The notes below the pieces were generated by a model that saw only the letters and a program-made list of their open reading frames with translations, was not told where the DNA came from and did not search any database. 64,000 nt of DNA from Hyphomicrobiaceae bacterium (GTDB lineage Bacteria; Pseudomonadota; Alphaproteobacteria; Rhizobiales; Hyphomicrobiaceae): assembly GCA_023384095.1 (NCBI GenBank), contig JAHDXT010000003.1, positions 62,001 through 126,000 of the forward strand. Direction: 5' to 3'. Below, in pieces: positions 30,967 through 45,045 of this stretch. The stretch's first letter is position 1. Each line of letters starts with the position of its first letter. The position numbers and the translations under genes are program-made.

Positions 30967-32580
30967 ATGATGGAGGGAATGCTCATGCTGAATAAAAGGC
31001 GTGCATTGTCAGGTGCGCTCGGGCTCGCGCTCGCCGCGCTCATCGCCGGCGGGCCCGCCGCGGCTCAGAAGGCGGGTGGAACGCTCGTCCAGATCACACA
31101 ACCCGAGCCGCCCAATCTCGCCCCCTATATTTCGACGTCCGGCCCGATCGGCCAGGTGACCGCCAAGGTCTTCGACGGCCTGCTCGAATACGATTTCGAC
31201 TTGAAGCCGCAACCATCGCTGGCCGAAAGCTTCGAGGTCTCAGCCGATGGCAAGACGATCACCTTCAAGCTGCGCAAGAACGCGAAGTTCCACGACGGCA
31301 AGCCTTTCACGTCCGCAGATGTGCAGTTCACGGTGATGGAGGTCCTGAAGAAGAACCATCCCCGAGGCCTCTCGACCTTCGCAGAGGTCACCACCGTCGA
31401 GACGCCCGACCCGCATACCGCGATCTTCAAGCTCCAGCGGCCGGCTCCCTACCTGATGACCGCTTTGTCAGGCTACGAGAGCCCGATGCTGCCGAAGCAC
31501 ATCTACGGCGAGGGCGATATCAAGACCCACCCGAACGCGAACAAGCCGGTCGGGACCGGCCCCTTCAAGTTCGTCGAATGGCGCCGCGGCGAGTTCGTCC
31601 GGCTGGACAAGAACAAGGACTACTGGCGCGAGGGAATGCCGTACCTCGACCGCATCGTCGTCCGGTTCATCGCCGACAGCTCGACCCGCACTGCGGCCCT
31701 CGAGAAGGGCGAGGCCCATGTCGCCGGGTTTGGCGCCGTGCCCTACAACGACGTGAAGAAGCTCGCCGCATTGCCGCACCTCGATGTGACGACGAAGGGC
31801 TACGAGATGATCTCGCCGATCGTCGAGCTTGTCCTCAACACGAAGCTGCCTCCGCTCGACAATCAGAAGGTCCGTCAGGCGATCTCCTACGCCGTCGACC
31901 GCAAGTTCATGATCGACAACGTGTGGTTCGGGTTCGGCAAGCCGGCCATGGCGCCGATCAGCTCCAACTTCGCGCCAACTGGCTACTATATCCCGGGCGT
32001 CGACTATACCGTGGCGGACCGGATCGAGCGCGCCAACAGGCTGCTCGACGAGGCCGGCTTCCCGAAAAAGGCAGACGGCTTCCGCTTCGAGCTCATTCAC
32101 GACATCACGCCCTATGGCGAGGAATGGCAGCGGGCCGGCGAGGCCGTTCAGCAAGCCCTGGCGCAGGTCGGCATCAAGGCTACCCTGCGCTACGAGGACG
32201 TCGCGAAATGGCTGAAGCGCGTCTACACCGACTACGACTTCGCGATCTCCTCGAACTTTCTCTACAACCTCGCCGATCCAGTCCTCGGCGTGCACCGCGG
32301 CTTCCACTCCAGGCTCATCAGGCCGGGCACGGTGTTCGTGAACGGCTCGCGCTGGTCGAGCCCTGAGACGGACGCATTCATGGATCAGGCCACCATCGAG
32401 ACGGACCAGGCCAAGCGCGGCGCACTCTACAAAAATCTCATCGCCAAGGTCACGGAGGCGAGCCCCGTCATCTACGTTCTCGAGCTCACCTTCCCGACGA
32501 TCATCAACACGCAGTTCAAGAACGTCATCACGACGCCGCTCGGCATCTACGGGAATTACGCGACGGCCTACAAGGAGTAG
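30967..32580 (+). CDS. ABC transporter substrate-binding protein, family 5 (peptide/nickel/opine type)
   Basis: GGTLVQITQPEPPNLAPYIS..., FKLRKNAKFHDGKPFTSADVQFTV..., PVGTGPFKFVEWRRGEFV. Confidence 0.92.
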   Translation: MMEGMLMLNKRRALSGALGLALAALIAGGPAAAQKAGGTLVQITQPEPPNLAPYISTSGPIGQVTAKVFDGLLEYDFDLKPQPSLAESFEVSADGKTITFKLRKNAKFHDGKPFTSADVQFTVMEVLKKNHPRGLSTFAEVTTVETPDPHTAIFKLQRPAPYLMTALSGYESPMLPKHIYGEGDIKTHPNANKPVGTGPFKFVEWRRGEFVRLDKNKDYWREGMPYLDRIVVRFIADSSTRTAALEKGEAHVAGFGAVPYNDVKKLAALPHLDVTTKGYEMISPIVELVLNTKLPPLDNQKVRQAISYAVDRKFMIDNVWFGFGKPAMAPISSNFAPTGYYIPGVDYTVADRIERANRLLDEAGFPKKADGFRFELIHDITPYGEEWQRAGEAVQQALAQVGIKATLRYEDVAKWLKRVYTDYDFAISSNFLYNLADPVLGVHRGFHSRLIRPGTVFVNGSRWSSPETDAFMDQATIETDQAKRGALYKNLIAKVTEASPVIYVLELTFPTIINTQFKNVITTPLGIYGNYATAYKE

Positions 32581-32658
32581 GCTCCGAAGAGATCGCGACA
32601 GCCGGCGGAAGCTCTCCTCCGGCTGCCGCTTCGTCTCTCAGTCGCCGGATCGGGCTCA

Positions 32659-33642
32659 ATGCGCGGCGCACCGCTCGTTCGATACATATTGCGCAGGCTG
32701 CTGCAGGTCGTCCCCGTCGTGCTCGGGGTCGTCATTCTGAACTTCCTCCTGCTGCAGCTCGCCCCGGGCGATCTGGCGACCGTTCTGGCCGGCGAGGCCG
32801 GCGGCGCGCCCAAGGAGTACATCGATCAGCTCCGGCAGCGCTTCGGGCAGGATCAGCCGGTGGTGATCCAGCTCTTCAACTACCTGCGCAACCTGCTGAC
32901 GCTCGACCTCGGCTACTCATTCCGGCAGAGCGCGCCCGTGCTGGACCTGCTGCTCGACCGGCTGTGGCCGACGCTGCTGCTGATGGTCACCACGCTGGTG
33001 CTGTCGCTCGGCATCGGCCTCCTCATGGGCCTGCTGGCGGCGCTCTGGGTGCGGACGTGGAAGGATCACGCCATCTCCGTAGCCGCGATCATTTTCTACG
33101 CGACGCCGCTGTTCTGGGTCGGCCTCATGCTGATCCTGGTGTTCTCGATCTACCTCGATTGGTTCCCCACCTCCGGCATGGAGGACGTGGTCGCCTTCTA
33201 CGAGGGATGGGACCGCGTCGTCGACATCGCCCATCATCTCGTCCTGCCCTCCATCACGTTGTCTCTCTTCTACCTGGCGCTCTATGCCCGGCTCATGCGC
33301 GCCTCGATGCTCGAGCAGCGCGGGCTCGAGTACGTCACCACGGCGCGCGCCAAGGGCCTGACGGAGCGGCAGATCACGCTCCGCCACGTGCTCCGCAATG
33401 CGCTGCTGCCGATCGTCACCATCGCGGGCGTGCAGGTCGGGGGACTGCTCGGCGGCTCGGTGATCGTCGAGAGCGTGTTCGCCTGGCCGGGGCTCGGTCA
33501 GCTCGCCTACCAGTCCCTCTTCGCGCGCGATTTCAATCTGCTGCTCGGCATTTTCTTCATGTCGGCCTGCCTGGTGGTGGTGGTGAACTTGATCGTCGAC
33601 GTGATCTACGTGCTGCTCGATCCGCGCATCCGGATCGGCTGA
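32659..33642 (+). CDS. ABC transporter permease (DppB-like)
   Basis: MRGAPLVRYILRRLLQVVPVVLGVVILNFLLLQLAPGD; EAA-loop region ARAKGLTERQITLRHVLRNALLPIVT. Confidence 0.92.
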   Translation: MRGAPLVRYILRRLLQVVPVVLGVVILNFLLLQLAPGDLATVLAGEAGGAPKEYIDQLRQRFGQDQPVVIQLFNYLRNLLTLDLGYSFRQSAPVLDLLLDRLWPTLLLMVTTLVLSLGIGLLMGLLAALWVRTWKDHAISVAAIIFYATPLFWVGLMLILVFSIYLDWFPTSGMEDVVAFYEGWDRVVDIAHHLVLPSITLSLFYLALYARLMRASMLEQRGLEYVTTARAKGLTERQITLRHVLRNALLPIVTIAGVQVGGLLGGSVIVESVFAWPGLGQLAYQSLFARDFNLLLGIFFMSACLVVVVNLIVDVIYVLLDPRIRIG

Positions 33643-33652
33643 GGAAGATGCG

Positions 33653-34480
33653 ATGAAGAGCTTTCGTGAGCGCTTCCTCGGCAACCCGCGTGTCGTCGCC
33701 GGACTTGCATGGCTCGTGCTGGCTCTGATCCTGGCCCTGATGGCCGATGTCCTCGCGCCGACCGATCCGTTCGCCATCGTCGGCGATCCGTTCCTGCCGC
33801 CGGGGGCCGGCTTTCTCCTCGGCACCGACAGCCTCGGCCGCGACGTGCTCGCCGGGCTCATTCACGGGGCGCGCACCACGCTGCTTATCTCGATTCTGTC
33901 GACGCTGGCGGCCGTGGCCTTCGGCACGCTCGTCGGCGCGCTGGCCGGCTACTACAGCGGGATCATCGACGACGCGCTGATGCGCATCACCGAATTTTTC
34001 CAGACGATTCCGTCCTTTCTGTTCGCCCTCGTGCTCATTGCAATCCTGTCGCCGTCGGCCACGAACCTGGTGATCGCCATCGCCGTCGTGAGCTGGCCGC
34101 CGATCGCGCGGATCGTGCGTGGCGAGGTGCTGTCGGTGAAAGCGCGGGAGTTCGTGCAGGCTGCCGTCGTCGCAGGACAGCGCGACAGCGCCATCCTGTT
34201 CTCGCAGATCCTGCCGAACACGCTCTCGCCGCTGATCGTGACCGGCTCGCTGCTGGTGGCGACGGCCATCCTTACCGAAAGCGCGCTGTCGTTCCTCGGC
34301 CTCGGCGCGCCGAACCAGATGAGCTGGGGCTTCATGATCGGCGCCGGCCGCTCGTTCATGCGCGAGGCCTGGTGGCTCGTCACCGTCCCCGGGGTCATGA
34401 TCCTGATCACGGTGCTCTCCATCAATCTGGTCGGCGAGGGTCTCAACGATGCGCTCAACCCGAGGCTCGCCGATCTATGA
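33653..34480 (+). CDS. ABC transporter permease (DppC-like)
   Basis: FLLGTDSLGRDVLAGLIHGARTTLLISILSTLAAVAFGTLVGALAGYY. Confidence 0.92.
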   Translation: MKSFRERFLGNPRVVAGLAWLVLALILALMADVLAPTDPFAIVGDPFLPPGAGFLLGTDSLGRDVLAGLIHGARTTLLISILSTLAAVAFGTLVGALAGYYSGIIDDALMRITEFFQTIPSFLFALVLIAILSPSATNLVIAIAVVSWPPIARIVRGEVLSVKAREFVQAAVVAGQRDSAILFSQILPNTLSPLIVTGSLLVATAILTESALSFLGLGAPNQMSWGFMIGAGRSFMREAWWLVTVPGVMILITVLSINLVGEGLNDALNPRLADL

Positions 34481-36099
34481 GCGACGTGGTCCTCGGCATC
34501 GAAAACCTGATCGTCGAGCTGCCCTCCTGGTCGGACCGCAAGCACGCCGTGTCCGGCATCTCCCTCGAGATCCGGCGCAACGAGATCCTGTGCGTCGTCG
34601 GCGAGTCGGGCTCCGGCAAATCCGTTATGGCGAAATCGATCCTGCGCCTGCTGCCGGAGCCGCACGTGCGCGTCACCGAGGGCCGCATCGTCTTCGAGGG
34701 CGAGGATCTGCTGGCGCTTTCGGACGAGGAGATCCGCGCCGTTCGCGGCGGCCGCATTGCCATGATCTTTCAGGAGCCGATGGTCGCGCTCAATCCCGTC
34801 ATGAAGGTCGGGCGGCAAATCGACGAGGTGCTGGAAGTTCATTCCGCCCTCAAGCCGGCCCAGCGCCGGACGCGCATCGTCGAGCTGATGCACGACGTGC
34901 ACCTGCCCGAGGCCGAGCGGATCATCGACAGCTACCCGCACGAGCTCTCGGGTGGTCAGCGACAGCGCGTGATGATCGCCATGGCGCTCGCCGTCGAGCC
35001 TGCGCTGATCATCGCCGACGAGCCGACGACCGCGCTCGACGTGACGACGCAGGCGCAGATCCTGCGATTGATCAGGGAGCTGCAGCGCGCCCACGGCACC
35101 GCCGTCATGTTCATCACGCACGACTTCGGCGTGGTGGCCGAGATCGCCGACCGCGTTGCGGTCATGCGCCACGGCGAGCTGGTGGAGCTCGGGGCCGCGG
35201 CCGAGATCCTCAACCGGCCGCAGGTGGACTACACGCAGGAGCTGGTCGCAGCCGTCCCGAGCCTGACCCCGCGCGTCCGCGACCCGGGACCCGCGCCGGC
35301 GCCGCTGCTGGTCGTGCACGATCTCGTCAAGACCTACGGCGCCGGCTCCGGTTTCCTGGGCTTCGGTAGCGGCCGTAAGGTCAAAGCCGTGCAGAACGTG
35401 AGCCTCGCGGTCGGGCGCGGGCGGTCACTGGCGCTCGTCGGCGAGTCCGGCTCCGGAAAGTCGACGCTGGCCCGCTGCATCATCGGGCTCGAGACGCCGG
35501 ACGCCGGCGAGGTCCGGCTCGACGGCGAGCGCATCTCGGGCCTGTCGCGACGGGACATGCGGCCGCTGCGGCGCGATCTGCAGATGGTCTTCCAGGACCC
35601 CTTCGCCTCGCTCAACCCGCGCCATCGCGTCGGCCACATCATCGCGCTCGGGCCCATGATCCAGGGCGTGCCGCAGGAGCAGGCCTGGGCGGATGTCCGT
35701 GAGCTTTTGAAGCTTGTCGGGCTGAAGCCGGAGGCGGCCGAGCGCTATCCTCACGAGTTCTCAGGCGGCCAGCGCCAGCGCATCGGCATCGCCCGCGCGC
35801 TCGCCGTGAAGCCGAAGCTGATCATCGCGGACGAGCCGGTCTCAGCGCTCGATGTCTCCGTGCAGAAGCAGGTTCTCGAGCTTCTCGACGAGCTCAGGCG
35901 GACGCTGAACCTTTCGATGCTGTTCATAACCCACGACCTGCGCGTCGCCGCCACCGTTTGCGAGGAGATCGCCGTGCTGCAGAACGGCCGCGTCGTAGAG
36001 CGCGGAGCAACGGCCGACATCTTCGCGCGCCCGCAAGCCCCCTACACCCGCGCGCTGCTCGACGCGGTTCCGGGCGTGGCCTGGCAGAAGACAGCGTGA
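34477..36099 (+). CDS. Fused dual ATP-binding ABC protein (DppD-DppF-like)
   Basis: Start MSDVVLGIENLIVELPSW overlapping previous stop; two complete nucleotide-binding domains, each with Walker A (GESGSGKS) and LSGGQRQR / FSGGQRQR. Confidence 0.92.
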   Translation: MSDVVLGIENLIVELPSWSDRKHAVSGISLEIRRNEILCVVGESGSGKSVMAKSILRLLPEPHVRVTEGRIVFEGEDLLALSDEEIRAVRGGRIAMIFQEPMVALNPVMKVGRQIDEVLEVHSALKPAQRRTRIVELMHDVHLPEAERIIDSYPHELSGGQRQRVMIAMALAVEPALIIADEPTTALDVTTQAQILRLIRELQRAHGTAVMFITHDFGVVAEIADRVAVMRHGELVELGAAAEILNRPQVDYTQELVAAVPSLTPRVRDPGPAPAPLLVVHDLVKTYGAGSGFLGFGSGRKVKAVQNVSLAVGRGRSLALVGESGSGKSTLARCIIGLETPDAGEVRLDGERISGLSRRDMRPLRRDLQMVFQDPFASLNPRHRVGHIIALGPMIQGVPQEQAWADVRELLKLVGLKPEAAERYPHEFSGGQRQRIGIARALAVKPKLIIADEPVSALDVSVQKQVLELLDELRRTLNLSMLFITHDLRVAATVCEEIAVLQNGRVVERGATADIFARPQAPYTRALLDAVPGVAWQKTA

Positions 36100-36107
36100 G
36101 CTCCCGT

Positions 36108-38135
36108 TCAGCTCGCACTCAGACGACCCCGTCGCCGGTTGCGGCCTGAACCGGCGCCCTCTCCATCGGAACGATGTTCCGAGCGCGGCGGCAGCGTGAC
36201 GACCCGCTGGAGGTTCACGTACGGGTCGCTCTTGTGCGGGAAGGCCATGGCGTCGACGAAGTGCGCCTGGAAGCGTGGCTCGGTCGCGGTCTCGATCTTC
36301 TCGATCCTGGCCACCACCTGCTCGATCTCGCGGCGCGCAGCGGCATTGAGCAGCGCGATGCGAGCCCCCGTCCCCGCTGCGTTGCCCGCCGAGGAGACCT
36401 GGCTCAGATCGCAATCCGGGATGAGGCCGAGCACCATCGCGTAGGTCACGTCGATATGGGTGCCGAAGGCACCGGCAAGCCTGATGCGCTCGATCCCGCG
36501 CCCGTCGAGGCGGTCCGTCAGCAGCTTGACGCCGGCATGCAGCGCCGCCTTCGCGAGCTGGATTGCGCGCACGTCGCCCTGTGTGACTGCAATGCGCGGC
36601 TCGCCGTCGCGGATCAGGTACGAAAAGGTCCGCCCCTCGGCCACGACCCGGGGTGTGCGTGCGGCCGCCCCGCCGTCGATCACGCCGTCCTCGCGGATGA
36701 TTCCGGCAAGATAGAGCTCGGCCAGCGCTTCGATGATGCCGGAGCCGCAGATGCCGGTGACGCCGGTGCCGGCGACCGCCGCCTCGAAGCCGGGGTCGTC
36801 GGACCACAGCTCGCAGCCGATGACGCGGAACCGCGGCTCGAGCGTCTGGCGGTCGATGCGCACGCGCTCGATGGCGCCGGGGGCGGCGCGCTGGCCGCTC
36901 GAGACCTGTGCGCCCTCGAAGGCCGGTCCCGTCGGCGAGGAGCAGGCGAGCAGGCGCTCGCGGTTGCCGAGGACGATCTCCGCGTTCGTGCCGACATCGA
37001 CCAGCAGCGTCATCGCGTCCTGCTGGTGCGGCGCCTCGGCGAGCACGACGCCCGCGGCGTCTGCCCCGACGTGGCCGGCGATCAACGGCAGCGTGTAGAC
37101 GAGTGCTCCCGGAGCCACGGTGAGGCCCAGCTCGCGCGCAGGCGTGCTCAGCCCGGCATCGACCGTCAGCGCGAAGGGCGCCCCGCCGAGCTCGACCGGG
37201 TCGAGACCCAGGAACAGGTGATGCATGATCGGGTTGCCGACCACCGTCACCTCGACGATGTCGCCGCGCTCGATCCCGGCTTGCACCGCCACGGCGCCGA
37301 TGAGGCCGTCGAGCGCAGAGCGGACCGCAGCAGTCATTTCCATGTCGCCGCCGGGATTGAGCATTGCGTACGAGACGCGGCTCATCAGATCCTCGCCGAA
37401 GCGGATCTGCGGGTTCATGACGCCGGCGGACGCCAGCACATCTCCGGTGGCGAGATCGCACAGGTGCGCCGCGATGGTCGTGGAGCCGATGTCGATGGCC
37501 GTCCCGAACGCCCGCTCGCGCAGTCCCGGCCATATGGCGACGATGTCGCGCCCCTCGCGCACCGCGACGGTGACGCTCCACCGGCCCTTGCGCAGCGTCA
37601 GTTGCAGGACCCGCAGCGTCGCGGTGTCCATGCGGGTATCGGCGAGGCCCCATTGCCCGGCCAGCGCCGATTGCAGCCGGCTGAGATCGGACGACGGGTC
37701 CTCCATGTCGGGCTGGGCCACCTCGACCAGGTGGAGGCGGACCACGGGATCGATGGCGATCGCGCGGACCTCGGCCTCCTTCCGGACCACCTGGCGGTGC
37801 ACCTGGCTGTCGGGCGGGACGTCGACGACGAGATCGCCGCTGATGCGCGCCTGGCAGCCCAGCCGCCGCCCAGCCGCAAGCGGGCCGCGCTTCTCGGCGT
37901 AGCGCGCCTCGACGGCATTCGACTGAGTGAGATGGGTGGCGGCGGACCTGATGCCGTGCTTGGGAAAATCGCCCTCGGAGACGAGCACCTGGCAGCGGCC
38001 GCAGATGCCGCGCCCGCCGCAGACCGAATCGAGATCGACGCCGAGCCTGCGCGCTGCCTCCAGCACGCTCGTCCCCACGGGGAAGCGGCCCCGCTTGCCC
38101 GACGGCGTGAAGACGACGAGATGTTCCTCTGTCAC
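36108..38135 (-). CDS. Corrinoid reductive-activation ATPase (RACo/RamA-like, DUF4445) with N-terminal 2Fe-2S domain
   Basis: 675 aa; SVCGGRGICGRCQVLVSEG...C 2Fe-2S motif; ASKHA core AFGTAIDIGSTTIAAHLCDLATGDVL..., LLVDVGTNAEIVLGN. Confidence 0.92.
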   Translation of the reverse strand: MTEEHLVVFTPSGKRGRFPVGTSVLEAARRLGVDLDSVCGGRGICGRCQVLVSEGDFPKHGIRSAATHLTQSNAVEARYAEKRGPLAAGRRLGCQARISGDLVVDVPPDSQVHRQVVRKEAEVRAIAIDPVVRLHLVEVAQPDMEDPSSDLSRLQSALAGQWGLADTRMDTATLRVLQLTLRKGRWSVTVAVREGRDIVAIWPGLRERAFGTAIDIGSTTIAAHLCDLATGDVLASAGVMNPQIRFGEDLMSRVSYAMLNPGGDMEMTAAVRSALDGLIGAVAVQAGIERGDIVEVTVVGNPIMHHLFLGLDPVELGGAPFALTVDAGLSTPARELGLTVAPGALVYTLPLIAGHVGADAAGVVLAEAPHQQDAMTLLVDVGTNAEIVLGNRERLLACSSPTGPAFEGAQVSSGQRAAPGAIERVRIDRQTLEPRFRVIGCELWSDDPGFEAAVAGTGVTGICGSGIIEALAELYLAGIIREDGVIDGGAAARTPRVVAEGRTFSYLIRDGEPRIAVTQGDVRAIQLAKAALHAGVKLLTDRLDGRGIERIRLAGAFGTHIDVTYAMVLGLIPDCDLSQVSSAGNAAGTGARIALLNAAARREIEQVVARIEKIETATEPRFQAHFVDAMAFPHKSDPYVNLQRVVTLPPRSEHRSDGEGAGSGRNRRRGRLSAS

Positions 38136-39158: not shown

Positions 39159-40184
39159 CTATCCGGGCGGCGCGGACGGACCGTTGAGGTCGCGCCGCCA
39201 GGGGGCGCGGCCCTCGAGAATGCCGGAGTCGTGGACGATTTCGGCGACGTACTCCTCCTGCCGGTAGGCCATGACGTGGACGCCGGCGATGCCGGGGATC
39301 TCGCGCACCTCGCGGATGATGTCGATGCACAGCCGCTTGCCCTCGGCCCTCTGGTCGGCGGCGCCCTCGAGCCGGGCGATGACGCTGTCCGGGATGTGCA
39401 CGCCGGGCACGTTCGCCCGCATCCAGCGCGCCGTCCTCGCCGAAGGCAGCGGGCCGACGCCGGCGAGGATGAAGCACTGCCTGTCTAGCCCCATTTCGCG
39501 GACCTTGGCCATGAAATCGCGCAGCATCGGGACGTCGAAGCAGTACTGCGTCTGGATGAACTGGGCGCCGGCCTCGACTTTCTTGGCGAGCCGCAGCGGG
39601 CGGAAATCGCAGGGCGGCGCGAACGGGTTCTCGGCGGCGCCGAGGAACAGGCGCGGCGGCGAGGTGATCCTGCGCCCGGATAGGAAGCGCTGCTCGTCGC
39701 GCATGCGCTTGATCACGGCGAGGAGCGAGATCGAATCGAGATCGAAGACCGGCTTTGCCTCGGGATGATCTCCCGACTGGACGCCGTCCCCGGTCAGGCA
39801 CAGGACGTTGCAGACGCCCATGGCGGCGGCGCCCAGCACGTTGCCCTGGATCGCGATGCGGTTGTGGTCGCGGCAGGAGATCTGCAGGATCGGCGAGTAG
39901 CCGACGCGCGTGAGCAGCGCACAGATGGCGACGCTCGACATGTGGCAGTTGGCGCCCGATCCGTCCGTCGCGTTGATACTGTCCACCCAGCCGTCGAAGG
40001 CGGCAGCCCGGTTGTAGACATCCTGCGGGTCGGCGGAGTCGGGTGGGCTGAGCTCTGCAGTTACCGCGAACTCGCCCCGGCGCAGCACCCGCTCGAGCCG
40101 GCCACTTGAGACGTGGCCCGGCAGCTCCGCAAGTGGTGCGCCGGGCTCCGCGAAATCGGCCGGATGCACGATACGCGCGCTCAT
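39159..40184 (-). CDS. Methylenetetrahydrofolate reductase (MetF-like)
   Basis: FAVTAELSPPDSADPQDVYNRAAAFDGWVDSINATDGSGANCHMSS...GVCNVLCLTGDGVQSGDHPEAKPVFDLDS. Start at 40184 within longer ORF to 40631. Confidence 0.88.
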   Translation of the reverse strand: MSARIVHPADFAEPGAPLAELPGHVSSGRLERVLRRGEFAVTAELSPPDSADPQDVYNRAAAFDGWVDSINATDGSGANCHMSSVAICALLTRVGYSPILQISCRDHNRIAIQGNVLGAAAMGVCNVLCLTGDGVQSGDHPEAKPVFDLDSISLLAVIKRMRDEQRFLSGRRITSPPRLFLGAAENPFAPPCDFRPLRLAKKVEAGAQFIQTQYCFDVPMLRDFMAKVREMGLDRQCFILAGVGPLPSARTARWMRANVPGVHIPDSVIARLEGAADQRAEGKRLCIDIIREVREIPGIAGVHVMAYRQEEYVAEIVHDSGILEGRAPWRRDLNGPSAPPG

Positions 40185-40714
40185 GACGGCAGCGTCCCGC
40201 TCCCGGAGCGCGCGCCACGGGCAACATCGAGCCAGGACGAGCGGCCCTTGAGACGGTGATCGACCGGCGGCTGCACCTGCTCGATGGCGCCGCCGCCCCG
40301 CATCGCCTGGGCCCCTTTCCAGGCTTCGACCCAAACGCAGGGCATCTCGGCGTAGATCTCGCAATGGCCGTCGGGCCGCACCCCGCCGCACGGGCCGTTG
40401 CGCATCCCTTTCGGGCAGTTCATCGGGCATGACATGCCGGTGGAGGACAGGATGCACCGCCCGCACATGCGGCAGTCGAACAGGGCGCCCTTGACGAGAC
40501 GCTCGGCGGCCGCGACCGGCCGCTCGAGCCGCTCGTAGCCGATCCATCCGAGCAGCGGGGCCGACGCGGTCAGCACGCGCTCGAAGGCGGCATAGAGGCG
40601 CTCGAGCAGCGACGCGTGGCGGACGCTCCAAAAGCGCAGCGCGAAGGAGCCCGCGCGGCGCGGCCTCTTGCCGGCAGGCTCGAATGCGGCCGGAACGCGT
40701 ATCCCGCGGGTCAT
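40181..40714 (-). CDS. MetV-like / methylenetetrahydrofolate reductase C-terminal-domain protein
   Basis: 177 aa; LFDCRMCGRCILSSTGMSCPMNCPKGMRNGPCGGVRPDGHCEIYAEMPCVWVEAW; 4-nt overlap with metF-like start. Confidence 0.88.
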   Translation of the reverse strand: MTRGIRVPAAFEPAGKRPRRAGSFALRFWSVRHASLLERLYAAFERVLTASAPLLGWIGYERLERPVAAAERLVKGALFDCRMCGRCILSSTGMSCPMNCPKGMRNGPCGGVRPDGHCEIYAEMPCVWVEAWKGAQAMRGGGAIEQVQPPVDHRLKGRSSWLDVARGARSGSGTLPS

Positions 40715-40778: not shown

Positions 40779-41408
40779 TCAGGCGGGCCTTGCGAGAAAC
40801 CGTTCCATGCCGCGCAGCCCTGTCTGCCGGACGACCAGCGGCAGCCCCAGCCGCGCGGCCGCCCGCTCGGCCTTGGCGACGAGAGCCGGGTCCGGCACCT
40901 GGGCCAGGAACACGACCTGGGTGTAGTTCCCGAAGTAAGTTTCCAGGAGCTGCGGAAAGCGGTCAAGCCCGAGGCCCTTGATGATCAGGCTGTCGAAGTG
41001 ACGAACCAGGTAGTCCGTGAGGAAGAACGTGGCCGGGTCGTCGTCGGCGAGCGCGGTGAACTCCTCGCTGCCGAGGAAGAACTCGTAGCAGTGCGCGCCT
41101 TCGATCCGCTCCACGCCCTCCTCGGCCAGGACCTTGTCGAGAAGGCCGCCCGTGCCGCAGTCGCCATAGAGGCAGAGCACGCGGTCGTAGGCGCTCCGCT
41201 CCTTCCTGATCTTGGCGCGCACCGCCTCCGGAATGCGCTCCGGCCGGTTGTGCAGCTTCGCCGGCAGGCACACGATCGACATATGGTCCCAGCCGTTGAG
41301 CTCTTTCAGCAGCAGGAACTCGCGCGCCAGGGCTCCGCACGCGACGACGAGAGTCCTCGGCGGCTCGGGCGTCTCGGGCGGAGTTGGAATCATGGTCGGA
41401 CCCGCCAT
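40779..41408 (-). CDS. DUF1638 domain protein
   Basis: TLVVACGALAREFLLLKELNGWDHMSIVCLPAKLHNRPERIPEAVRAKIRK...LCLYGDCGTGGLLDKVLAEEGVERIEGAHCYEFF. Confidence 0.85.
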   Translation of the reverse strand: MAGPTMIPTPPETPEPPRTLVVACGALAREFLLLKELNGWDHMSIVCLPAKLHNRPERIPEAVRAKIRKERSAYDRVLCLYGDCGTGGLLDKVLAEEGVERIEGAHCYEFFLGSEEFTALADDDPATFFLTDYLVRHFDSLIIKGLGLDRFPQLLETYFGNYTQVVFLAQVPDPALVAKAERAAARLGLPLVVRQTGLRGMERFLARPA

Positions 41409-41420
41409 ACGGGCTCCCCG

Positions 41421-42125
41421 TCAGGCGACCTCGCGGGCAAGGATTGAGCCCTGCCGGCGCGCCATGAACGACTTCGCCGTCTCGACGGCGACGGCGGCAT
41501 CGCGGCAGTAGGCATCGGCGCCGATCGATTCGGCGAAGGCCTCGTTGAGCGGCGCCCCGCCGACCAGCACGATATAATCGCTGCGGATGCCCTTCTCCTT
41601 CAAGGTATCGATCACGACCTTCATGTAGGGCATGGTGGTGGTGAGCAGCGCGGACAGACCGATGATGTCCGGCTGGTGCTCCTCGATCGCAGCGAGATAC
41701 TTCTCGACCGCGTTGTTGATGCCGAGATCGATCACCTCGAACCCGGCGCCTTCCAGCATCATGGTGACGAGGTTCTTGCCGATGTCGTGAATGTCGCCCT
41801 TGACGGTGCCGATGACCATCTTGCCGATCTTCGGCGCGCCCGTCTCGGCCAGCAGCGGCCTGAGGATCGCCATGCCGCCCTTCATGGCGCCGGCGGACAT
41901 CAGCACCTCGGGGACGAACAGGATGCCGTCACGGAAGTCGGCGCCGACGATCTGCATGCCGGCGACCAGCGACTTGGTGAGGACTTCGTACGGCTTCCAG
42001 CCACGGCCGAGCAGGATGCGCACGCCTTCCTCGATCTCGTCCTTGAGGCCGTCATAGAGATCGTCATGCATCTGCTCGACGAGCTCATCGTCGGACAGCG
42101 TGTTGAGGTCGAGTTCATTTGTCAT
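41421..42125 (-). CDS. Corrinoid (B12-binding) protein of methyltransferase system
   Basis: 234 aa; KGDIHDIGKNLV (DxHxxG) with VPEVLMSAGAMKGGMAILRPLL cap domain and GGAPLNEAFAESIGADAYCRDA. Confidence 0.95.
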   Translation of the reverse strand: MTNELDLNTLSDDELVEQMHDDLYDGLKDEIEEGVRILLGRGWKPYEVLTKSLVAGMQIVGADFRDGILFVPEVLMSAGAMKGGMAILRPLLAETGAPKIGKMVIGTVKGDIHDIGKNLVTMMLEGAGFEVIDLGINNAVEKYLAAIEEHQPDIIGLSALLTTTMPYMKVVIDTLKEKGIRSDYIVLVGGAPLNEAFAESIGADAYCRDAAVAVETAKSFMARRQGSILAREVA

Positions 42126-42257: not shown

Positions 42258-44762
42258 TCACGCCCGCAATCGCTCATTCGCCGGATCGAATGGCGATTCC
42301 TCGATCACCACCGCCCGGTGCCGCTTCCCGAGGATGGCGATATCGAGCTCCGTCCCGAGCACGCCGAGCTCTGGCGGGACCATGCCCAGCGCCAGCGAAT
42401 GCCCGAGCCGCCAGCCGTAGCCGCCCGAGGTGCAACGGCCGACCAGCTTGTCGCCCCGGTAGATCGGCTCCGATCCGCGGGCGTCGGCGTCCGTCACGTC
42501 CTCGACGCGCATCGTGACGAAGGCGTTCCGAAAGCCCTTCTGCTGCCAGCGGACCAGCGCGTCGCGGCCGATGAAATCGCCCTTCTCGGGGCGCACGAAG
42601 CGGCCCAGGCCGCTCTCCAGGGCGGCGTACTCGATCGACAGCTCGCGCGGGATCAGCCGGTAGGACTTCTCCAGCCGCATCGAATCCATGGCGCGGATGC
42701 CGAACGGCCTGATCCCGAATGGCCGGCCCGCCTCCATGACGAGATCGAAAATGGTGTTCTGCATCTCGATGGGGTGATGCAGCTCCCAGCCGAGCTCGCC
42801 GACGAAGTTGACGCGGAGCGCGCGGGCCTGCGCCACGCCGACGTTGATGAACCTGCCGGTCAGCCAGGGGAAGCTCTTGCTCGACAGGTCGGTGTCGGTC
42901 AGCGTCTGCAGGACCTCGCGCGAGCGCGGCCCGGCAAGGACCAGCACGCCGTATTGCGTCGTCACCTTCTGCAGCCAGACGCTGCCGTCCTTCGGCACCG
43001 ACCTCCAGAGATAGTCCCAGTCGTGCCGCTCGAACGCGCCGGCGCCGACCAGGTAGAACCGCTCCGGACCTTCGCGATAGATGGTGAACTCGGAGCGGAC
43101 GCCACCGTTCTTCGACAGCATGTGGGTCAGCGCGATGCGGCCGAGCTTGGGGATCCGGTTCGCCACCAAGCCGTCGAGCCAGGCCTCCGCGCCCGGCCCG
43201 GAGACCTCGTACTTGGCGAACGCCGACATGTCGAGCAGGCCGACGTTCTCGTGCGCGTTGCGGCATTCCCGCCCGACGTGCTCGAAGTAGCTCGACCGCC
43301 GGAAGCTCCACTTCTCGCGGGGCCTTTGGCCCGCAGCTACGGGCGGATGGTTCTCGTTGAGCAGGACGTCGGATTTTGCGAGCTCCGCCTCCGATAGTCC
43401 GTAGCCCTCGGGCGCGAACCAGTTCGGCCGCTCCCAGCCATAGATGGAGCCGAACACCGCGCCGAGCGCCTTCATGCGGTCGTAGCAGGGCGCCCGCTTG
43501 ATGGGCCGCGCCGCGGCGCGCTCCTCGTCCGGATAGTGCACGGTGAAGACGTTGGCGTAGGCCTCCTCGTTCTTGGCGCGCAGATAGCCGCGAGCCGCAT
43601 AGGGGCCGAACCGGCGCGGATCGACGCCCATCATGTCGATGGTCGGCTCGCCGTCGACGATCCATTCGGCGAGCTGCCATCCGGCCCCGCCGGCGGCCGT
43701 GACGCCGAAGCTGTGGCCCTCGTTGAGCCAGAAGTTGGGGACGTCCCAGGCCGGACCGACGATCGGGCTGCCATCCGGCGTGTAGGCGATGGCACCGTTG
43801 TAGACCTTCTTGACGCCGACCTCGCCGAAGGCCGGCACACGCGCGATCGCCGTCTCGATGTACGGCGCCAGCCGCTCCAGGTCCTCCTGGAACAGCTCGA
43901 ACTCGGACTGCTCGTCCGGGCCGTCGACATAGCAGCACGGCGCGCCCTTCTCATAGGGTCCGAGAATGAAGCCGCCGTTCTCCTCGCGCAGGTACCAGGA
44001 CGAATCGGACTCGCGCAGCACGCCCATCTCGGGCAGGCCCTTCCTCTGCCGCTCCACGACAGCGGGATGCGGCTCGGTGACGATGTACTGGTGCTCGACC
44101 GGGATGACTGGCACCTCGAGCCCGACCATCGCCCCCGTACGGCGGGCGAAGTTGCCGGAGGCCGAGACGACGTGCTCGCAGGCGATGTCGCCCTTGTCGG
44201 TCTTGACCACCCATTGGCCATTGCGGCGCTCGATGCCGGTCACGGTCGTGTGCCGGTATATCTCCGCACCGCGCGACCGGGCGCCATGCGCCAGGGCCTG
44301 CGTCAGGTCGGCCGGCTGGATATAGCCGTCGTCGGGGTGCTGGATGGCGCCGATGAGCCCCGCCGTCTCGCAGAGCGGCCAGACCTCCTTCAGCATGGCC
44401 GGCGTCAGCAGGTTGACGTCGATGCCGATCGTCCGGGCGACGCCGGCGTAATACATATACTCGTCCCAGCGGTCCTGCGTGCGCGCCAGCCGGATGTTGG
44501 AGACCTGCTTGAACCCGACGTGCTGGCCCGTCTCCGCCTCCAGCGTCTTGTAGAGCTGCACGGAGTACTTGTGGATCTGCCCCACCGAGTAGCTCATGTT
44601 GAAGAGCGGCAGCAGACCGGCCGCGTGCCAGGTCGAGCCCGAGGTCAGCTCGCGGCGCTCGACCAGGACGACGTCGGACCAGCCCTTTCTTGTCAGGTGG
44701 TAGAGCGTCGAAACGCCGACGACGCCCCCGCCGATGACAACGACCCGAGCCTTAGCTTTCAT
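42258..44762 (-). CDS. Dimethylglycine/sarcosine dehydrogenase-like flavoprotein with GcvT (folate) domain
   Basis: 834 aa; VVVIGGGVVGVSTLYHLTRKGWSDVVLVERRELTSGSTWHAAGLL FAD motif; C-terminal GCV_T-like domain (FVGELGWELHHPIEMQNTIFDLVMEAG...). Confidence 0.9.
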   Translation of the reverse strand: MKAKARVVVIGGGVVGVSTLYHLTRKGWSDVVLVERRELTSGSTWHAAGLLPLFNMSYSVGQIHKYSVQLYKTLEAETGQHVGFKQVSNIRLARTQDRWDEYMYYAGVARTIGIDVNLLTPAMLKEVWPLCETAGLIGAIQHPDDGYIQPADLTQALAHGARSRGAEIYRHTTVTGIERRNGQWVVKTDKGDIACEHVVSASGNFARRTGAMVGLEVPVIPVEHQYIVTEPHPAVVERQRKGLPEMGVLRESDSSWYLREENGGFILGPYEKGAPCCYVDGPDEQSEFELFQEDLERLAPYIETAIARVPAFGEVGVKKVYNGAIAYTPDGSPIVGPAWDVPNFWLNEGHSFGVTAAGGAGWQLAEWIVDGEPTIDMMGVDPRRFGPYAARGYLRAKNEEAYANVFTVHYPDEERAAARPIKRAPCYDRMKALGAVFGSIYGWERPNWFAPEGYGLSEAELAKSDVLLNENHPPVAAGQRPREKWSFRRSSYFEHVGRECRNAHENVGLLDMSAFAKYEVSGPGAEAWLDGLVANRIPKLGRIALTHMLSKNGGVRSEFTIYREGPERFYLVGAGAFERHDWDYLWRSVPKDGSVWLQKVTTQYGVLVLAGPRSREVLQTLTDTDLSSKSFPWLTGRFINVGVAQARALRVNFVGELGWELHHPIEMQNTIFDLVMEAGRPFGIRPFGIRAMDSMRLEKSYRLIPRELSIEYAALESGLGRFVRPEKGDFIGRDALVRWQQKGFRNAFVTMRVEDVTDADARGSEPIYRGDKLVGRCTSGGYGWRLGHSLALGMVPPELGVLGTELDIAILGKRHRAVVIEESPFDPANERLRA

Positions 44763-45045
44763 GTTGGCTTCCCTCCACGGCCGGAGTCGCCGGACCTCTG
44801 GCGCTGCCAGCCGCCGGCCCGGCTCAGTCGCCCCAGTGTCGCGGCCCGATCGTGGAATACTAGCGGCACCACGACGCGCAATGTCGCCGCCGCGCCATCC
44901 CGCTCGGGCGATTGCGGCAGTCTGCAGGCAGGATGTGACGGGAACGGGCAATTCTGCGACGTTCGCACGCCAGAGTAGCCCTGACCGGCATCCCATTGTC
45001 GCTGGAACGGTCGCCAACACAGAGCACCCTCTCAAGGAGGCCCGA

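Follow-up and report, generated by a model that had tools for sequence, protein, structure and literature searches.

Known MetVF enzymes and aerobic methyl-THF oxidation

Few methylated osmolytes are as abundant as glycine betaine and DMSP. To our knowledge, aerobic CH3-THF oxidation following osmolyte demethylation is known genetically only via MetF2. In Ruegeria pomeroyi, the MtgBCD system combines an MttB-family protein, a corrinoid protein, a pterin methyltransferase, a RamA-like activator and a DUF1638 protein with a proposed oxidation of CH3-THF (Mausz et al. 2025, PMC12478193). That last step is assigned to MetF2, an MTHFR-like protein of a different kind that has no MetV, and the accessible part of the paper does not mention MetV. 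The cmu pathway of Methylorubrum extorquens CM4 (CmuABC, MetF2, FolD and PurU) likewise moves methyl groups to THF aerobically through a corrinoid and then oxidizes CH3-THF, with a dedicated reductase paralogue beside the canonical MetF. MetF2 is essential for growth on chloromethane despite the presence of the native MetF, and the authors concluded that the native MetF is misregulated or unable to carry the oxidative flux (PMC4949252).

MetVF enzymes have been described from a different setting. They are defined by a MetV subunit with an NGPCGG domain and two [4Fe-4S] sites, encoded directly upstream of metF, and the published classification places MetFV enzymes only in strict anaerobes (PMC8515935). 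The 2S-type (type II) enzymes of Clostridium ljungdahlii, C. formicoaceticum and Acetoanaerobium noterae have no third subunit, and the MetV of C. ljungdahlii holds two [4Fe-4S] clusters (PMC8515935). Type IV enzymes (MetVF-HdrABC-MvhD), found in Moorella and Thermacetogenium, share the MetVF core, and the Thermacetogenium enzyme oxidizes methyl-THF with viologen or AQDS and not with NAD+ (PMC6895022).

Here we describe a 64,000-nt stretch of DNA (the window) in which a metV-metF pair very probably encodes a MetVF-type 5,10-methylene-THF/5-methyl-THF oxidoreductase that would run in the oxidative direction within an aerobic, methylotrophy-like operon. While the surrounding MtgBCD pathway has been known since 2025, a widespread aerobic MetVF appears to be new; a text search, with most subscription journals outside its reach, found no paper on an aerobic MetVF family.

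The metV-metF pair and its operon

The host assembly (4.58 Mb, 93 contigs, estimated 100% complete) has eight heme-copper oxidase matches and no match to the acetyl-CoA synthase CdhC, which marks the host as a respirer rather than an acetogen; acetogenesis was rejected on these grounds. The genes in and around the pair are as follows:

36108..38135, minus strand: RACo/RamA-like reductive activator of corrinoid protein (2Fe-2S plus ASKHA), 675 aa, GTG start; PF14574 E 1.7e-86, PF17651, PF17650, PF00111
38144..39052, minus strand: methyl-THF:corrinoid methyltransferase (MtrH/AcsE-like, pterin-binding), 302 aa; PF00809 E 8.4e-27, PRK07535.1 357 bits, above its cut-off of 259
39159..40184, minus strand: MetF-like flavoprotein subunit, MetVF clade, 341 aa; PF02219 MTHFR E 4.7e-33, tree
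40181..40184, minus strand: ATGA stop/start overlap, metV/metF coupling; from the sequence
40181..40714, minus strand: MetV-like subunit, 177 aa; PF12225/DUF5981 E 3.7e-26, 91 bits, cut-off 23
40779..41408, minus strand: DUF1638 protein, 209 aa; PF07796 E 1.1e-30
41421..42125, minus strand: corrinoid protein (MtgC/MttC-like), 234 aa; PF02310, PF02607; best NCBIfam match MtgC at 203 bits, below its cut-off of 370
42258..44768, minus strand: dimethylglycine/sarcosine dehydrogenase (DMGDH)-like flavoprotein with aminomethyltransferase (GcvT) domains, 836 aa; PF01266, PF16350, PF01571, PF08669
45046..46605, plus strand, divergent: MttB-family (non-pyrrolysine) quaternary-amine methyltransferase, 519 aa; PF06253 E 2.7e-235, no in-frame stop

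The minus-strand genes are transcribed in the order DMGDH-like flavoprotein, corrinoid protein, DUF1638, MetV, MetF, MtrH/AcsE-like and RACo-like, and with the divergent MttB-family gene the window contains the entire MtgBCD gene set (MttB family, corrinoid protein, pterin methyltransferase, RamA/RACo and DUF1638). The solved structures nearest to the window MttB are 4yyc (809 bits) and then the glycine betaine methyltransferase 9yce (423 bits). The DMGDH-like neighbor and the betaine transporters of relatives are suggestive of glycine betaine as a candidate substrate. A Ruegeria relative of the DUF1638 protein rises on N-osmolytes (PMC12478193). Beside the operon end, on the plus strand (30967-36099), are putative oligopeptide-type ABC transporter genes (binding protein, two permeases, ATPases).

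The metV stop codon TGA (40183-40181) lies within the ATGA whose ATG (40184-40182) starts metF, giving a 4-nt overlap. In a tblastn-based count of 103 MetV copies from the window and the collected loci, MetF is fused, overlaps or starts at most 60 nt downstream in 99: 81 junctions show the 4-nt overlap and one a 1-nt overlap, 16 have a metF start within 60 nt, and one is a fusion, while MetF directly downstream was undetected in four. The pairing by overlap exceeds chance.

MetV consists of an all-helical N-terminal part of ~60 residues followed by the DUF5981 domain, which contains eight Cys (CRMCGRC, CPMNC, GPCGG, HCE and MPC). In the alignment, this pattern is present in 106/106 short-type MetVs, and every one of the eight Cys found in the iron-sulfur domain of acetogen MetV is retained; the window MetV is predicted to carry two [4Fe-4S] clusters. 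With the NGPCGG domain, the eight Cys and metV directly upstream of metF, the pair has the composition by which MetVF enzymes are recognized. The N-terminal domain of acetogen MetV, which has its own Cys (CxxCxxxC), is absent from the window MetV and its short-type relatives, and was found in Acetoanaerobium and at two collected loci (L015 and L042). An AlphaFold2 model of MetV (mean pLDDT 76, with low confidence at residues 97-108 in the Cys-rich region) has helices where acetogen MetV has that domain. A search of solved structures with MetV and a Foldseek search with the model each gave no match.

A maximum-likelihood tree of 44 rows joins the window MetF to the MetFs of MetV-bearing loci and to the MetF of Acetoanaerobium noterae, a reference that sits inside a CODH/ACS (Wood-Ljungdahl) gene cluster. 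The MetVF-clade MetFs are separated with support of 100/99 from the MetF of E. coli and from the host's canonical MetF, and MetF2 branches further out than canonical MetF, in a tree whose long branches were flagged by the tree tool. The window MetF keeps the residues aligned to Glu28, Asp120 and Gln183 of E. coli MetF. Phe223 of E. coli MetF, which is important for stacking on NADH/folate, is replaced by Met, Leu or Ile in MetVF-clade MetFs, the acetogen included. Two further arrangements were seen among the relatives. A diverged second MetF-like gene, forming its own clade in the tree, lies directly upstream of MetV at L047, L049, L056, L069, L081, L096 and L116, and Acinetobacter plasmids encode a 463-aa protein with the domains reversed, MTHFR then DUF5981 (L165:5927-7318), adjoining mesX and a methionine synthase gene.

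There are four MTHFR-family matches in the host genome. Besides the window pair, they are a canonical metF on contig C46 (306.7 bits), separate from the pair; a weak, MetF2-like match on C70; and, on C15, a natural MetV-MetF fusion in one 484-aa chain (L009:9053-10507). The fusion belongs to a second corrinoid locus of the genome, with RACo-like, DUF1638, corrinoid protein, URO-D family, FAD oxidoreductase and TRAP transporter genes as neighbors. The genome has five RACo-like loci (C6, C15, C27, C37 and C70; L143-L145) and two MttB genes, suggesting that several other methylated substrates are used.

A preliminary description of the sequence had read this locus as a MetV-like plus MetF-like pair, related to acetogen MetVF and set in a methyltransferase locus, in which a 177-aa protein with a dense Cys pattern overlaps the MetF-like start by 4 nt. 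The overlap, the Cys pattern and the methyltransferase setting (a corrinoid one, from Pfam and NCBIfam matches) were all confirmed, and the subunit identities are upheld by the retained acetogen Cys and by the phylogeny proposed there, which groups MetF with its Acetoanaerobium counterpart and apart from canonical MetF. The likeness to acetogen MetVF stood for the MetF clade and the eight Cys, and failed for the partner subunits and for MetV itself, which is short and lacks the acetogen N-terminal domain. Compared with type II acetogen enzymes, the pair is alike in gene order, MetF clade, NGPCGG domain with eight Cys and the lack of a third subunit. It differs in that the host respires oxygen without acetyl-CoA synthase, the locus is one of demethylation, and the direction is probably oxidative; moreover, the window MetV has 177 aa and no Cys-bearing N-terminal domain, as against 225 aa in Acetoanaerobium and 23.5 kDa in C. 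ljungdahlii.

Relatives of the pair and the direction of the reaction

In the proposed pathway, MttB would demethylate a quaternary amine, with glycine betaine the likeliest, and load the methyl group on the corrinoid protein, whose cobalt would be kept reduced by RACo, perhaps with the help of DUF1638. The MtrH-like enzyme would hand the methyl group on to THF, and the MetF flavin would oxidize the resulting CH3-THF to CH2-THF, with electrons leaving through the two MetV [4Fe-4S] clusters to a carrier whose potential lies above that of NAD+. The DMGDH-like enzyme would remove the next methyl groups as CH2-THF, such that all methyl carbon would meet at CH2-THF, and from there it would pass through FolD/PurU to formate, or to serine. 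Operon context alone leaves the direction unfixed, since the corrinoid/MtrH pair of Ruegeria is bidirectional and has a part in methionine synthesis as well (PMC12478193).

Genome contigs were scanned, and at least 578 stretches encode relatives. The best 80 of these all come from Pseudomonadota, and the neighborhood frequencies, which draw on the most similar stretches, are biased toward close relatives. In 101 loci, the neighbors counted were MetF (99), DUF1638 (80), MtrH (78), PF13769 (77), corrinoid protein (73), RACo (70) and MttB (42), and the order corrinoid protein, DUF1638, (PF13769), MetV, MetF, MtrH, RACo is repeated across most of them. Annotated genomes with that order include Sinorhizobium meliloti (pSymB), Paracoccus aminovorans and Azoarcus sp. 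KH32C, where the cluster adds ABC transporter genes for glycine betaine along with PurU and ETF genes. The S. meliloti operon (L163) reads virulence factor, metV, metF, MtrH and ASKHA. The family PF13769 is named 'Virulence_fact', which looks misleading given its place in a corrinoid operon; it occurs in 54/289 alphaproteobacterial genomes, 53 of which have RACo (for example L053:9683-9991), and is missing from the window operon, with three copies elsewhere in the genome. In Rhizobiaceae and Paracoccus, a conserved protein of 234-235 aa lies beside MttB (L163:4789-5493, L167:4674-5381); it is called 'ferredoxin' in one record, yet has no Pfam match.

Evidence bearing on direction came from the distribution of MetV and MetF2. 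Among the 289 alphaproteobacterial genomes, 24 have MetV, 62 MttB, 64 RACo (over cut-off) and 52 MetF2 (strong matches), and 22 of the 24 MetV-bearing genomes have MttB, as do 22 of 24 for RACo. Within the 59 genomes that have both MttB and RACo, MetV occurs alone in 18 and MetF2 alone in 36, while three have both and two have neither. Thus, 54/59 have one or the other and never both (Fisher p 3e-10, treating genomes as independent though they are phylogenetically related). Counted by family, nine have MetV only, 21 MetF2 only, four are mixed and two have neither, and in this comparison no locus had MetV and MetF2 within 6 kb of each other. At several loci a MetF2-like gene sits between MtrH and PF13769, the slot held elsewhere by MetV-MetF; this occupation of the slot rests on the 26 of 52 MetF2 copies that lie near RACo or PF13769. 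Over 96% of its length, the MetF2 query shares 36% identity with a protein of CM4 pCMU01. That protein lies beside CmuB, the position described for metF2. Judging from its operon, the Ruegeria MetF2, proposed to oxidize methyl-H4F (PMC12478193), would belong to the same family. Because MetVF is replaced by an enzyme needed for oxidizing chloromethane methyl groups, these data support an oxidative direction. CM4 itself has MetF2 instead of MetVF and a different primary methyltransferase.

A second line of evidence came from loci where MetV lies beside DmdA-like genes and no corrinoid genes are present, in Halomonadaceae (L097, L104, L106 and L136), a Pseudomonas-like MAG (L077) and one alphaproteobacterium (L052). 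The three DmdA-like proteins scanned score 370-385 bits against the DMSP demethylase model, for which the NCBIfam cut-off is 410, and at most ~184 bits against GcvT models. DmdA-type enzymes make CH3-THF directly, and its oxidation is therefore the obvious use of MetVF in these loci. PurU and FolD genes accompany the Halomonadaceae and L077 loci, some of which also have acyl-CoA ligase, enoyl-CoA hydratase and Lpd; across 105 MetV loci, PurU was found in 15 and FolD in 10. In the L097 and L106 clusters, MetV has no MetF directly downstream. The alphaproteobacterium with the DmdA-like linkage (G154, at L052) has its own MetF2 copy elsewhere, next to PF13769.

The oxidative direction suggested in the preliminary description draws comparative support from the MetF2 replacement, the DmdA-like linkage with PurU and FolD, and the separate canonical metF. 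The same three observations make it unlikely that the pair acts reductively, as in acetogens, making CH3-THF whose methyl group MtrH and the corrinoid protein pass to a homocysteine methyltransferase for methionine: a canonical metF is already in the genome, the gene that replaces the MetVF locus is needed for oxidation of the chloromethane methyl group, and the DmdA-like, PurU and FolD linkage makes little sense for CH3-THF production. Such a reductive role would be consistent with the behavior of acetogen MetVF, which is reductive in vivo (PMC8760232), with the Ruegeria corrinoid protein and MtgD serving methionine synthesis besides glycine betaine demethylation (PMC12478193), and with the reversed-domain Acinetobacter protein next to mesX and methionine synthase. 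The MetF and MetV families are common to acetogens, and the pair could be imagined as a Wood-Ljungdahl remnant gained by transfer and without a role of its own; this is disfavored as highly improbable, given the lack of CdhC in the genome, the strong conservation of operon and sequence across the at least 578 matched stretches, and the duplication and fusion of the pair elsewhere in the same genome.

Electron acceptor and the role of MetV

The NAD+/NADH couple has a potential of -320 mV. For CH2-THF/CH3-THF, E0' is -200 mV (PMC8515935), so an acceptor of higher potential would be needed, as had been anticipated from the sequence. Calculated from -200 and -320 mV, oxidation of CH3-THF with NAD+ costs ~23 kJ/mol under standard conditions. 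The ETF/quinone pool is our guess for this acceptor. ETF genes occur in 2/105 MetV loci, and no acceptor gene is consistently linked among the 105. A tblastn search of these loci for RnfC, NuoE/F/G, HdrA and MvhD had hits only at L042 (Hdr/Mvh) and, with a single NuoF/G-like match, at L097. Unlike type IV enzymes, then, neither the window pair nor any other locus except L042 has Hdr/MvhD nearby. The type III (RnfC2), type IV (HdrABC-MvhD) and X-type (NuoEFG) complexes were rejected for the window pair, which has none of these partner genes beside it. Lpd was weighed as an acceptor because acetogens, and some DmdA-type loci too, have it next to MetVF. It was rejected, given that the C. ljungdahlii DLDH gave its MetVF no electrons (PMC8515935) and that the corrinoid loci have no Lpd.

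The missing redox partner would fit a simpler arrangement, in which MetV is only a structural or assembly partner and electrons pass directly between the MetF flavin and NAD(P); Moorella MetF is strongly stimulated by MetV, as cited in PMC8760232. This appears quite improbable in light of the eight Cys, which are invariant in 106/106 short MetVs and match those of acetogen MetV, a protein with two [4Fe-4S] clusters in C. ljungdahlii (PMC8515935), and of the replacement of Phe223 by Met, Leu or Ile in MetVF-clade MetFs. Electron exit through MetV is a part of a broader proposal, which we make tentatively, that there may be an aerobic MetVF class outside the published five-group classification. 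Its members would be dedicated to CH3-THF oxidation, serving two or more demethylation pathways unrelated to each other (corrinoid-dependent for quaternary amines, and DmdA-type), would be interchangeable with MetF2, and would pass electrons through the MetV clusters to the respiratory chain (ETF or quinone) instead of NAD+, with energy thereby conserved at the first C1 oxidation step. An oxidative MetVF would be a second, common CH3-THF-oxidizing enzyme on the plan of the acetogen enzymes, explaining organisms that lack MetF2 and contradicting the claim that MetFV enzymes occur solely in strict anaerobes. Aerobic, genetically tractable hosts such as Sinorhizobium meliloti, which has the operon, would become available for studying the electron partner of MetV, and annotations that name the CH3-THF step a reductase could be corrected. 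One alphaproteobacterium has a different arrangement: at L042:8187-14810, a 1503-aa ORF (putatively HdrA-like), MvhD/FlpD, a long acetogen-type MetV and MetF lie in a row, and the same genome additionally has a short MetV.
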